Below, in pieces: positions 15,807 through 22,162 of a stretch of 39,399 nt of DNA. The notes under the pieces are model-generated. The model was not told the DNA's origin and ran no database searches. It worked only from the letters and a program-made list of their open reading frames with translations. Made by a program: the position numbers and the translations under genes. The stretch spans positions 1 through 39,399 of the forward strand of contig CAIQPO010000043.1 of the NCBI GenBank assembly GCA_903873735.1. Reading direction: 5' to 3'. How positions within the stretch are numbered: position 1 is the first letter of the stretch; each line of letters starts with the position of its first letter. The stretch is from Candidatus Collierbacteria bacterium. Its GTDB lineage: Bacteria > Patescibacteriota > Microgenomatia > UBA1400 > MFAQ01.

Positions 15807-17405
15807 ATGACAAGAGAAATTTACCCCCAATCAGAATTTGAACACCACCAAAGCCACTCCAAAGTTTATCTAGTACTAAGATCTGAAAATCCCAATACCG
15901 ACACTAACTCTGAAGAAAACTATGCCACTACTATAGCTGGCCAATCTGGGCGCACATGTTATTCTGCCAACATTCAGTTCCCTAGTGACTACAGACACAA
16001 ATCAGATAAATACCGCCAAGTAACAGATGGAGTGGTCAGATCCACTCGAGAAGCAGGTCACCTTACCACCCGCCAACATGTTCACTACACTTTCGCCCTC
16101 GAGGGTGTATCAAGACTAGCAGTCAATTTCTTCCACTCTCATCCACACTACAATTCTGAAGAAATGAGTCAAAGATATGTAACAATCAAAAACAAGGAGC
16201 TAATTTCACCACAAACAGAAAATCCCGAAACTGCTGCCCTACTAGAGTCAGCAAGGATTGGTCTCATCTCAGGCTACGAGGAAATTACAGCAAGTCTTAC
16301 ACCCCTAGCTTTGTCAGAGCTGCAGGCAAGGTTTCCCGGAAGAAAAGGTGAACGATATCAAGAATTTTTTGAAAAAGAGGCACAAAAAAAAGCCCAAGAA
16401 GTAGCTAGATATTTACTACCACTTGGGACACCAACCAATCTTTATCACACAATATCTGAGCTCACACTTGTTCGCCTATATCACCTGTCAGAAACACTTC
16501 CTAATGGGACTGAAGCCAAAGCCATTGTCCAAGCCATGGTTGACACAGTTGCGGCAATAGATCCTAGTATCATTGATGAAATTGGTAAACCATACCCCAA
16601 ACCATATTCCCATACTCTTGCTCAGCCACTTCCAAAAGAGGCAAAAACAAACTTTGATTTGGCTATGACGGATAGCTTTTCACTCCAAGACACTCACCCT
16701 AATTTTATTTCCTCCCTCGCCAGATCTGTACAACTTACGCTCGGACTCGACATTCCAGAAGAGGAGTTGATTGGCTTACTGTTAGACCCCAAACAAAATT
16801 CTCTAATAAGTTCTGTCTGGGGAGAAACCGTACTCGACCAACTTGGTCTATGTTTAAATCAAGTACATCTCACTGGTTTAGTCTCGTTAAGCCACACTGC
16901 CAACTATCAACTTCACCGACATCGAGGCTTTACTCACACTGAACCCCTGATATTGGATATACCAGATCTTGACGATATCGTTATCCCAGCACTTATAAAA
17001 ACAAACTCTGAAATTGAAAAGCGTTATCTAGAAATTCACCATCAACATCTCCAAACTCTTCACCAACTCCAGGAGCAAGGCGTTAGCCTCCAGGAACTAC
17101 AATATTTACTCCCCAACTCCACCAGAGTCAGAAAGCAAATATCTGGTCCTTTGGGATCATATCTTCACTTCATCAAGTCAAGAACTTGTTTAAATGCCCA
17201 AGAGGAAATCTATCAAATCGCAGTTCAGCTAACCCAACAACTATCAATTCTTGAACCATCACTTGTTCCTTATTTGAATCAGCCGGCTCCATGTGGCTTA
17301 AGGAATCGAGCCTCAATCACACCCTACTGTCCTGAAGGCTCTCGTTTTTGTGGAATAAAAATTTGGGATTTAAATATTTCAGACTATCCTCAACGCACCA
17401 TATAA
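15807..17405 (+). CDS. tandem (two-domain) ThyX-like flavin-dependent thymidylate synthase family protein
   Basis: Repeat 1: HYTFALEGVSRLAVNFFHSHPHYNSEEMSQRYV and AQEVARYLLPLGTPTNLYHTISELTLVRLYHLSE; repeat 2: SLSHTANYQLHRHRGFTHTEPLIL and LQYLLPNSTRVRKQISGPLGSYLHFIKSRTCLNAQEEIYQIA. Confidence 0.75.
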   Translation: MTREIYPQSEFEHHQSHSKVYLVLRSENPNTDTNSEENYATTIAGQSGRTCYSANIQFPSDYRHKSDKYRQVTDGVVRSTREAGHLTTRQHVHYTFALEGVSRLAVNFFHSHPHYNSEEMSQRYVTIKNKELISPQTENPETAALLESARIGLISGYEEITASLTPLALSELQARFPGRKGERYQEFFEKEAQKKAQEVARYLLPLGTPTNLYHTISELTLVRLYHLSETLPNGTEAKAIVQAMVDTVAAIDPSIIDEIGKPYPKPYSHTLAQPLPKEAKTNFDLAMTDSFSLQDTHPNFISSLARSVQLTLGLDIPEEELIGLLLDPKQNSLISSVWGETVLDQLGLCLNQVHLTGLVSLSHTANYQLHRHRGFTHTEPLILDIPDLDDIVIPALIKTNSEIEKRYLEIHHQHLQTLHQLQEQGVSLQELQYLLPNSTRVRKQISGPLGSYLHFIKSRTCLNAQEEIYQIAVQLTQQLSILEPSLVPYLNQPAPCGLRNRASITPYCPEGSRFCGIKIWDLNISDYPQRTI

Positions 17406-17973: not shown

Positions 17974-18016
17974 AAAGTACAGCGCGTATTATAAGACCAA
18001 ATCCTATATATATCAA
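17974..18016 (-). promoter_or_regulatory. promoter TTGATA-17-TATAAT plus 5' element GTACTTT
   Basis: -35 18011-18016, -10 17988-17993, element 17974-17980 (minus). Confidence 0.75.
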
Positions 18017-20007
18017 GAAGCAGTCTCTACTTCTCCTTTTTGCTGTGGTTTGTGCCAACTTGCCCATGTACAGTTCGGGTAATCCTCACATCCATAAAAA
18101 TCTCTACCGGTCTTAGTTTTTTTAAGAACTACTCGCTTACCGCATTTCTCACAAGTCACTCCATCAACATATTCAATATACTGGTCTGTGTATTTACATT
18201 CTGGATATTTATCACAACTTAAAAACTTTCCAAACTTTCCATCTCTTATCACCACTTCTCCAGTTTTACACTCTGGGCATTTTTTTCCAGTAGAAATTGT
18301 GGGCACAGCTACCCTAGCACTTTCTTTATCTACTATTGCCAATCTATCCTTAAACGTATCCCAAAAATTACTTAGCATTTTTTCCCAGTTCTCCTTACCA
18401 TCAGCCACCAAATCCAAATCATCCTCCATCTTGGCTGTAAACTCATACTCCATCTCTGTTGGGAAGTTTTTCATTAAGAAATCAGTCACCGCTTCACCAA
18501 TTGAAGTAGCAAAAAATCTTCTTTCTCTTTGTTCTACATATCTTCTATCCTGAATGGTTGAAATAATTGCAGCATAAGTAGAAGGTCTACCGATTCCCCT
18601 CTTCTCCAACTCCCTTATCAAAGAGGCATCATTGTATCTTGCTGGAGGTTGGGTAAATTTTTGTTCCGACAACACTTTTTCTTTCTTCAATTTTTCTCCA
18701 GCTATCACTTCTGGAATTATTTGTGCCTCACCATTCTCCTTGGGAAATAGCTTCTTCCAACCTTCGAATTTAATTGTATTCCCATTACCAGTAAGCAAAT
18801 ACTTTCCACACAACACAGACACTCCAGTATCATCAAAAATCGCATCATTCATCTGACAAGCCACAGTTCTCCTCCAAATAAGCGAGTAAAGCTTAGATTG
18901 GTCAGCCATCATTCCATCTTGTCCTTTATAGGCACCAGGGGTAACACTGACATTTGTTGGTCTTACTGCCTCATGAGCTTCTTGCGCTACCACTTTCCCA
19001 CTTGCTTTATAAACTCTCGGCACATTTGACACAAAAGTCGCCCCATATTCTGACTCAATCTGTTTTCTAATCTGGTCAATAGCGGAATCAACTAAATTTA
19101 GAGAATCAGTACGATGGTAGGTAATGTCACCTTGTTCATATAATCTCTGAGCTACATTCATTGTCCTCTTTGCTGACCACCCAAAAGCATTTGCTGCAGC
19201 CTGCTGTAGAGTTGATGTTTTGAAGGGTGGGTGTGGAGCCACATGTCTTTCTGTCTTTGTAAGCTTGGAAACTTCATACTCGCCCTTCTCCAAATCAGAT
19301 ACAACTCTACCAGCAATCTCTCCGCTATTAACTACTGCTTTCTTGTTATCGATCTTTGCCAGCTGAATTTCAAATGCTTTACCGTTTTTTGTTGTCACCA
19401 AAGCGGAAATCTCCCAATACTCTACCGGTTTAAATTTTTGGATCTCTCTTTCCCGCTCTACTATCAACCTCACCGCAACGCTCTGGACTCTTCCAGCTGA
19501 TAAACCCCTTCTCACCTTTTTCCACAAAATTGGAGACAATTTATAGCCCACCAATCTATCCAAGAAGCGTCTAGCTTGTTGGGCATTCACCAGATTCATA
19601 TCTACCTGTCTGGGATTGTCCAAAGCCTCAAGAATTGCCTCTTTGGTAATTGAGTGAAAAGTAATTCGTTTTACTTCTGTCCCCTTTTTAAGTGAACTTC
19701 TAAGAAGTGATGACACATGCCAAGCTATTGCCTCCCCTTCACGGTCAGGATCTGATGCCAATATAATTTCACTGGCTTTTTTTGCCTCCTTCTCCAACAG
19801 GCTTACTTGTTCATCTTTTCCTTTCATCACTTTATATTCAGGAATGAAATCATAGACCGCTTTACCCTTTTCTTTAATTTCTATTCCAAATTTACTTTCA
19901 GGTAAGTCACGAACATGACCCATACTGGCCATGATCTTGAAATCACTTCCTAAGTACTTAGATAAACTTTTTGTTTTTGTGGGTGATTCGACAATGACTA
20001 AACGCAT
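18013..20007 (-). CDS. topA: DNA topoisomerase I
   Basis: MRLVIVESPTKTKSLSKYLG, ASDPDREGEAIAWH, HRTDSLNL, C-terminal CxxC zinc modules. Confidence 0.97.
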   Translation of the reverse strand: MRLVIVESPTKTKSLSKYLGSDFKIMASMGHVRDLPESKFGIEIKEKGKAVYDFIPEYKVMKGKDEQVSLLEKEAKKASEIILASDPDREGEAIAWHVSSLLRSSLKKGTEVKRITFHSITKEAILEALDNPRQVDMNLVNAQQARRFLDRLVGYKLSPILWKKVRRGLSAGRVQSVAVRLIVEREREIQKFKPVEYWEISALVTTKNGKAFEIQLAKIDNKKAVVNSGEIAGRVVSDLEKGEYEVSKLTKTERHVAPHPPFKTSTLQQAAANAFGWSAKRTMNVAQRLYEQGDITYHRTDSLNLVDSAIDQIRKQIESEYGATFVSNVPRVYKASGKVVAQEAHEAVRPTNVSVTPGAYKGQDGMMADQSKLYSLIWRRTVACQMNDAIFDDTGVSVLCGKYLLTGNGNTIKFEGWKKLFPKENGEAQIIPEVIAGEKLKKEKVLSEQKFTQPPARYNDASLIRELEKRGIGRPSTYAAIISTIQDRRYVEQRERRFFATSIGEAVTDFLMKNFPTEMEYEFTAKMEDDLDLVADGKENWEKMLSNFWDTFKDRLAIVDKESARVAVPTISTGKKCPECKTGEVVIRDGKFGKFLSCDKYPECKYTDQYIEYVDGVTCEKCGKRVVLKKTKTGRDFYGCEDYPNCTWASWHKPQQKGEVETAS

Positions 20008-20048
20008 ACTTAATAAGATTACAACATTTTTTAGTGAGGGTATTCTAG

Positions 20049-20082
20049 CAAAAAAAATCTCCTGTGATAAATCACAGGAGAT
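20049..20082 (-). terminator. intrinsic terminator of the putative ncRNA
   Basis: Minus strand ATCTCCTGTGATTTATCACAGGAGATTTTTTTT. Confidence 0.93.
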
Positions 20083-20567
20083 AAGGCATCAAATGAGAGC
20101 AACCGGAGAGGGCGGCTAAGCCGCAAACATTGGGCTTGCCGCCCTCCCGGAAAAGAAAATACAGCATCACCTTTAGGTAGCCTAAAGACTCAATATGCAC
20201 TCTCGGGCCACATTGCCCGAAGCACGGAGTCTGGCACTACCTACTAAGCACGTGGCATGGAGCCACGCCCTACCCCATCTGGAGGAGGGTTGGCTTAGTC
20301 CGCATTGCGGCGTGCTGTTTCTGAAGTACCCCAAAAAGGGTATTTTATGCTAAGGCCGCGGAACGGTCTAGGCATCTTCAGCCAAGTCAGGATATCGAGG
20401 ACTTGGACTCTTACCCCGCCGCGAGGGAAAAAGAAAAAACGCGGGGCTTACAACCACAAGGGGCCGGTGCAGTGTCGCTGCTTTCGTCGGCTTCCCGAGA
20501 TAAAGACATTCATATCTTCATTTCAGGAAGTCGACTCTCATTTAATTAAAGTTCACTCAAAAAGAGT
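20049..20567 (-). ncRNA. putative large structured RNA of unknown class
   Basis: No good ORF; consensus promoter upstream; closing helix AAATGAGAG (20535-20543) with CTCTCATTT (20091-20099); hairpins CCAAGTC/GACTTGG, CGTGGC/GCCACG, TCGGGC/GCCCGA, CTTTAGG/CCTAAAG and a long one at 20103-20150; ends at an intrinsic terminator. Confidence 0.75.
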
Positions 20568-20573
20568 ACGGGT

Positions 20574-20602
20574 ATAATATCACCACATTATCACTTTGTC
20601 AA
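20574..20602 (-). promoter_or_regulatory. promoter TTGACA-17-TATTAT for the putative ncRNA
   Basis: -35 20597-20602, -10 20574-20579 (minus). Confidence 0.8.
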
Positions 20603-20620: not shown

Positions 20621-22162
20621 CTATTTTTTCATCAAAACTGGCATCATCTCTTTAACCACTGGACCAGCCACAGCCGACCCTTCTCCACCAGCTTCCACCA
20701 ACACCGTAACAACAAGCCATTCCTTTATGTCATCACCTTTGGGTACCACTACGCTAATCCAAGCATGCGGCTCATCCTTTTCACCTCCCTGCTGAGCGGT
20801 ACCTGTTTTGCAATAAATTTTCCCCCCATATTCAAAAAGTGGAAATGCCGTTCCACCCTCTCTACAAGTCATTTCCATACCTTTCTTAACCACTTCAATA
20901 TTTTTCTTAGTAATACCCACCTCGCGGCATCCTTTTATCCCCACCAGGAGCGGAGTACACCATTCTCCACTAATTACAGCAGCAGTCATTCTATTAATTT
21001 GAAGCGGTGTTACGAGCAAGTCACCTTGTCCAATAGACATGTGATAAGTATTCCCCAAAAACCACTTTGCACCTGAGTATTTTTCTCTCCAATATGGAGT
21101 CGGGACAAAACCATCTGCCTCAAATGGTAGATCTATTCCTGTCTTCTTTCCTAAACCCGTCGTCTCCGACCATTTGACCAACGACTCAACACCCAACATT
21201 TCACCCAATTTATAGAAAAAGATATCGTTACTTCTAGAAAGAGCTTTCTCCACATCCAAAGCCCCTTCAACCTTTCCATATTTATCCAAAAACCAATTAC
21301 CAAATCTGTATTCTCCAATTTTTATCTCTCCAGTATCCTCAATTATGGTTTCAGATGTAATTTTTCCTTCAGACAAACCAGCCAAGGCCGTAAGGACCTT
21401 ATAAACCGATCCAGGCGCAAACTGTCCAGAAACTACTCTATTGTACAAAGGCTTCTTATCATTATCCGACACAATAGACTGTACATCTTTAAACTCCCCA
21501 CCGTAATCGCTCCGTTTCCCAGAATTAATAAATAAGTTTGCATCATAAGATGGTAGGCTTACCAGAGCCAATACTTCACCATTAATTTTAGCGACCACCC
21601 CCGAAGCGCTCTTTCCAGTAGTATTGAGCATCGACTTAAGTGACAAAAACATGCTCTTTTGGATATCCAAGTCAATATTCGTTTTAATGTTCTCCCCAAA
21701 GACGGGATTTATTCTGGAAATTTCTTTGATATTTACTCCCTCTGCACTCTCCTCTACCAATACCTCACCCCAAGTACCCATCAAGCGATTGTCATATATC
21801 TTTTCTAACCCAGACTTACCCACCAGAGTCTCATTGCTACATTTGCTACATTTTTCCAAATCTTCCCTTGATGCTCTCGATAAATACCCAGTCACCCCCG
21901 CCAACATCTCGCCATATGGATAAAATCTAAACGTCTTACCACTCACTTCAATATTCAAAGCCATACTTTTACCAGTTCGATCTGTAATTATTCCCCTTGC
22001 TGGTAATATCGACACCCTCCTTACCATGTTCCCCTTTGCCATACCTTCATAGTAATCCCCCATAAACACGCTTAAAAACACTACCCTCGACAAACCCACT
22101 GACAACAGTAGCATCAAGGCAATTTTCAAGACAAAAAATGATATTCGTCGTTGACTCATCAA
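20621..22162 (-). CDS. mrdA: penicillin-binding protein 2-like transpeptidase
   Basis: FAPGSVYKVLTAL (SxxK), SRSNDIFFYKLGE (SxN), CKTGTAQ (KTG); adjacent to mreD. Confidence 0.88.
   Translation of the reverse strand: MMSQRRISFFVLKIALMLLLSVGLSRVVFLSVFMGDYYEGMAKGNMVRRVSILPARGIITDRTGKSMALNIEVSGKTFRFYPYGEMLAGVTGYLSRASREDLEKCSKCSNETLVGKSGLEKIYDNRLMGTWGEVLVEESAEGVNIKEISRINPVFGENIKTNIDLDIQKSMFLSLKSMLNTTGKSASGVVAKINGEVLALVSLPSYDANLFINSGKRSDYGGEFKDVQSIVSDNDKKPLYNRVVSGQFAPGSVYKVLTALAGLSEGKITSETIIEDTGEIKIGEYRFGNWFLDKYGKVEGALDVEKALSRSNDIFFYKLGEMLGVESLVKWSETTGLGKKTGIDLPFEADGFVPTPYWREKYSGAKWFLGNTYHMSIGQGDLLVTPLQINRMTAAVISGEWCTPLLVGIKGCREVGITKKNIEVVKKGMEMTCREGGTAFPLFEYGGKIYCKTGTAQQGGEKDEPHAWISVVVPKGDDIKEWLVVTVLVEAGGEGSAVAGPVVKEMMPVLMKK

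Follow-up and report, generated by a model that had tools for sequence, protein, structure and literature searches.

Few large structured RNAs are known in bacteria, and several of them have no known function. The ornate large bacterial RNAs OLE, ROOL and GOLLD are several hundred nucleotides long, adopt elaborate multibranch folds, and their function is open (PMC12286853). The raiA motif RNA (ModT), a structured bacterial RNA of wide interest as a stand-alone RNA, is conserved in more than 2,500 species (PMC11706538). Terminator-controlled leaders such as the PyrR binding site place a terminator just before the gene that they precede. Here we describe a locus in Candidatus Collierbacteria (Microgenomates, CPR), between a PBP2 gene and topA, where one to four strongly folded predicted RNA genes per genome match no Rfam family. 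Their promoters, and in several of them the overall architecture, are shared between species, while the sequence of the RNA itself has changed almost beyond recognition.

We analyzed a 39,399-nt stretch of Candidatus Collierbacteria DNA (contig CAIQPO010000043.1 of assembly GCA_903873735.1), hereafter the window. The original prediction, made from sequence alone, proposed a structured RNA gene of about 515 nt on the minus strand between topA and the PBP2 gene, with its own promoter, a long-range closing stem and a terminator. The sequence and coordinates are as predicted, and the internal helices that were listed are present in the minimum free energy (MFE) structure. The features of the locus are as follows, with the RNA ends inferred from consensus promoter and terminator signals.

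20621..22162, minus strand: PBP2-type transpeptidase gene upstream (Pfam PF00905, PF03717)
20574..20602, minus strand: promoter of the RNA, TTGACA-17-TATTAT
20050..20570, minus strand: predicted large structured noncoding RNA, about 520 nt
20554..20568, minus strand: small 5' hairpin TACTC/GAGTG in the MFE structure
20535..20543, minus strand: closing stem P1, 5' arm, in the MFE structure
20486..20535, minus strand: first long hairpin P2, in the MFE structure
20091..20099, minus strand: closing stem P1, 3' arm, in the MFE structure
20050..20082, minus strand: intrinsic terminator with T8
20042..20070, minus strand: probable promoter of topA, TTATCA-17-TAGAAT, overlapping the terminator
18013..20007, minus strand: topA downstream (Pfam PF01131, PF01751)

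The promoter (TTGACA at 20602-20597, TATTAT at 20579-20574, spacer 17) matches the consensus at 11 of 12 positions and has TG before the second hexamer. The terminator consists of an 11-bp stem at 20082-20057 followed by T8. Between them, AAATGAGAG (20543-20535) pairs with CTCTCATTT (20099-20091), and this closing stem is 11 bp in the MFE structure. The RNA folds at -228.9 kcal/mol, compared to -165.4 +/- 5.6 for dinucleotide shuffles (z -11.3), and z is -9.3 when the terminator is removed. The antisense strand gives -9.5, as expected where most of the stability is in hairpins. The same measure gives only -3.3 for the RNase P RNA and -3.7 for the tmRNA of the same genome, so this RNA is very stable even for a structural RNA. 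GC content is 0.54-0.57 in the core, compared to about 0.35-0.47 in the flanks. No minus-strand ORF of 60 aa is present, and reading frames under genetic code 25 gave nothing convincing. A 90-aa antisense ORF has no convincing Pfam match and no relative in other species. Elsewhere in the window, we note a ThyX-type thymidylate synthase gene (15807-17405, plus strand) of 532 aa with two matched stretches, much longer than the usual single domain.

The original prediction reported that RNase P, tmRNA and SRP RNA features were not recognizable, and suggested either a new large ncRNA class or a very divergent member of a known one. To test this, we compared the window with all Rfam 15 families. 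No family reached its gathering score, and scanning with permissive filters gave only chance matches, the best being a PyrR-site match (E=1.8) that leans on the terminator. RNase P RNA and tmRNA are encoded elsewhere in the genome. A small SRP RNA was not found in the draft genome, but the stretch does not match the SRP models either. These results support the reading of a new large ncRNA class; very divergent membership of a known family is not excluded but has no support.

We next asked whether relatives carry RNAs at the same place. The closest TopA is 72% identical. We read the gap between the PBP2 gene and topA in the 15 other genomes of the family (G001 to G015; g2 to g6 denote genera), of which G002 could not be read. 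One to four units of promoter, noncoding body and terminator are present in G001 (g2), G004 (g4, cut by the contig end) and all of G005-G013 (g5), or 11 of 14 readable relatives. They are absent from G003 (g3) and from G014 and G015 (g6), so the RNA is not essential for the group. Seventeen RNAs of relatives, with spans set by hand, have fold z-scores from -3.6 to -11.0, and no Rfam family matches in the nine relative loci scanned, even with permissive filters. In G008, G009 and G010, a promoter in the last codons of the PBP2 gene precedes a unit of about 100-120 nt with two hairpins and a T-run, just after the PBP2 stop codon (our locus labels L250 and L263 in G009, L045 and L071 in G008 and G010), a possible further small RNA of the cluster. 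The RNA is one of a tandem set in a hypervariable locus, which could not be seen from the window alone.

In the complete genome of G008, the gap before topA ranks first of 219 intergenic gaps for fold stability, above RNase P and tmRNA, and its RNAs are single copy. The same genome contains three copies of a structured element of several hundred nt (TGCCTGCGAAGCAGGCACT ... AATATCAG.TAGTAAAAT ... TTCGTTATAACA) next to small genes and without Rfam match, at L102:18680-19616, L100:17264-18040 and L100:11118-11583 (genome 438681, 397264 and 391118), which looks like a mobile or repeated RNA or DNA element. Hairpin-rich stretches at genome 663942-664561 and 756300-756600 (in L114 and L118) lie beside tRNA genes and repeat pieces of the tRNA's 3' half, such as GGGATTCGAAT. 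The G008 tmRNA (L089:229-642, genome 160229-160642) has an unusually long tag, VNKEDKLLGFVASGVKSLANEIKSFTPVYAFA. In G006, a palindromic repeat-like insert lies in frame inside the topA gene (L075, about 2030-2140), reminiscent of palindromic elements in Rickettsia genes.

The promoter of the window RNA aligns with that of the corresponding RNA in seven relatives, spacer and flanks included. After the promoter, identity collapses. The window RNA has 36-44% identity to the relatives, while shuffled sequences in the same procedure give 31-51%. In contrast, the RNase P RNA of the window has 65-75% identity to its relatives and topA DNA has 59-69%. Between G008 and G009, identity is 55% for this RNA, 90% for RNase P and 81% for topA. 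Rfam's class A RNase P model finds no match in G006, G007, G010 and G013, two of them estimated 99% complete, although the other twelve genomes of the family have one. The loss of identity may reflect fast drift under a fold constraint, or replacement. Intergenic DNA diverges fast anyway; what is unusual is that strong folds, promoters and terminators persist.

Among relatives that can still be aligned, helices covary strongly. Three alignable RNAs (G006, G009 and G010) give a consensus structure with z -16 against column shuffles, and 20 of 150 pairs have a sequence with changes on both sides. The first long hairpin is shared by seven RNAs of g5, including two neighbours in one genome, and has 10 of 23 pairs with two-sided changes and 96% paired cells (88% in shuffles, 30-49% when slid). 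Closing stems of unlike sequence occur in the window (AAATGAGAG/CTCTCATTT), G013 (ATAAATGAATTTG/CAAATTCATTTAT), G009 and G010 (AATATACATT/AATGTATATT) and G008 (AATATGCAT/ATGCATATT), and shuffles do as well in 16, 0, 3, 2 and 10 of 300, respectively. The closing stem of the window taken alone is therefore only mildly unusual, and several other RNAs, G006 among them, have no significant contiguous stem by this simple test. A TCTC/GAGA hairpin can be drawn in G013 and G009 at the place of the small 5' hairpin of the window. These data indicate that structure is under selection in relatives. For the window's copy, which is too diverged for covariation to be tested beyond the closing stem, structure is shown only indirectly.

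A sequence search for the window RNA in 15 family genomes, 374 class genomes, phages and plasmids gave nothing convincing, and promoter patterns were not found in viral contigs. A covariance model (R1) built from three relatives found, in 281 class genomes and at the strict cut-off used, only one of the sequences it was built from, plus a weak match in G008 at the right place; the window does not match R1. A GAAATG shared in the first hairpin of five RNAs is no better than the best chance 6-mer. Palindromic 6-nt words are not enriched in hairpin loops (4 of 65 loops, 2.4 expected). In what was searched, this RNA is confined to one family, although RNAs of this kind at other places in other CPR groups would be missed by sequence, promoter patterns and one model with strict cut-offs. 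Compared with OLE, ROOL and GOLLD, it shows no sequence or model match, its sequence is far less conserved, and it is found between housekeeping genes of CPR bacteria in tandem sets, not near phage tRNA islands. Extensive conserved secondary structure, as in these ornate RNAs, is seen in relatives, and in the window by folding only. The raiA RNA does not match either. Relative to leaders such as the PyrR binding site, the locus has a probable separate topA promoter, tandem independent units and no conserved sensor core.

We favor the interpretation, with a probability of roughly 0.6, that the window carries a stand-alone noncoding RNA gene belonging to a lineage-specific cluster of large structured RNA genes that Candidatus Collierbacteria carry between the PBP2 gene and topA. 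In this reading it is transcribed from its own strong sigma-70-type promoter, ends at its own intrinsic terminator and folds into a compact multibranch domain closed by a long-range stem. Gene signals, extreme fold stability, like place and promoter in relatives, and covariation in alignable relatives support this view, whereas its expression, in the absence of expression data, and its action in trans are inferred. Own promoter and terminator, tandem independent units and probable separate topA start signals right after the last terminator argue for an RNA acting in trans. A body free to change while the fold is kept argues against base-pairing to a fixed target or a conserved ligand pocket, and for action by shape. 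The RNA most likely acts as a stable folded scaffold, protein-bound or self-assembling, in which overall shape is kept while sequence is free to change or is driven to change; this last step is inference and has no direct evidence.

Other explanations appear unlikely. The terminator ends about 45 nt before the topA start codon and all genes are co-directional, so the RNA could be a long cis-acting leader that senses something and controls read-through into topA. However, a probable topA promoter lies at the terminator; its consensus match (9 of 12) is near chance level in itself, but TACAAT or TAGAAT lies at the like place in relatives. In addition, G005 and G010 have three or more RNAs in series, each with its own promoter and terminator, no sensor core is conserved, and G015 has topA right after the PBP2 gene without any RNA. 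It is similarly doubtful that the folding reflects noncoding debris, in which dispersed palindromic repeats have piled up in a tolerant gap. Repeat-like hairpins are indeed seen near and inside these gaps in G003, G010 and G013, and both strands fold equally well. Yet the window RNA has no second copy in its genome at E<=0.01, the G008 RNAs are single copy, promoters are conserved, and both long-range and hairpin pairings covary. A very divergent member of OLE, ROOL, GOLLD, raiA, SRP or group I or II introns is the least likely, because only size and complexity and the failure to find a small SRP RNA in the draft genome speak for it, against the absence of any Rfam match in the window or nine relative loci.

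Interestingly, a hypervariable body behind a fixed promoter would also fit a diversifying decoy, defence or incompatibility RNA, whose body changes because phages, plasmids or neighbours select for difference. The RNAs of G006 and G009 align at both ends with a poorly alignable middle, and G006 and G010 share 99 identical nt inside the first RNA, then nothing, where topA is 81% identical. That segment is at the very end of a G006 contig, where an assembler breaks on a shared word, so it may be a true shared module or an assembly edge, and we count it as a hint of exchange only; with one genome per species, strain variation could not be seen. No defence gene is associated, and no virus, phage or plasmid in the collections searched carries the RNA by the searches made. 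This explanation has no direct support and remains improbable. A broader possibility, still speculative, is that promoter and overall architecture are fixed while the structured bodies are diversified and exchanged between species, as an RNA counterpart of variable surface or defence loci.

We found no description of large structured RNAs of this kind for CPR bacteria in the open papers searched, and the small genomes of these bacteria make a noncoding locus of up to 2 kb costly. A set of RNAs that keeps promoter and fold while losing sequence identity between related species would be invisible to Rfam-style searches, and suggests looking for others by place and fold rather than by sequence.
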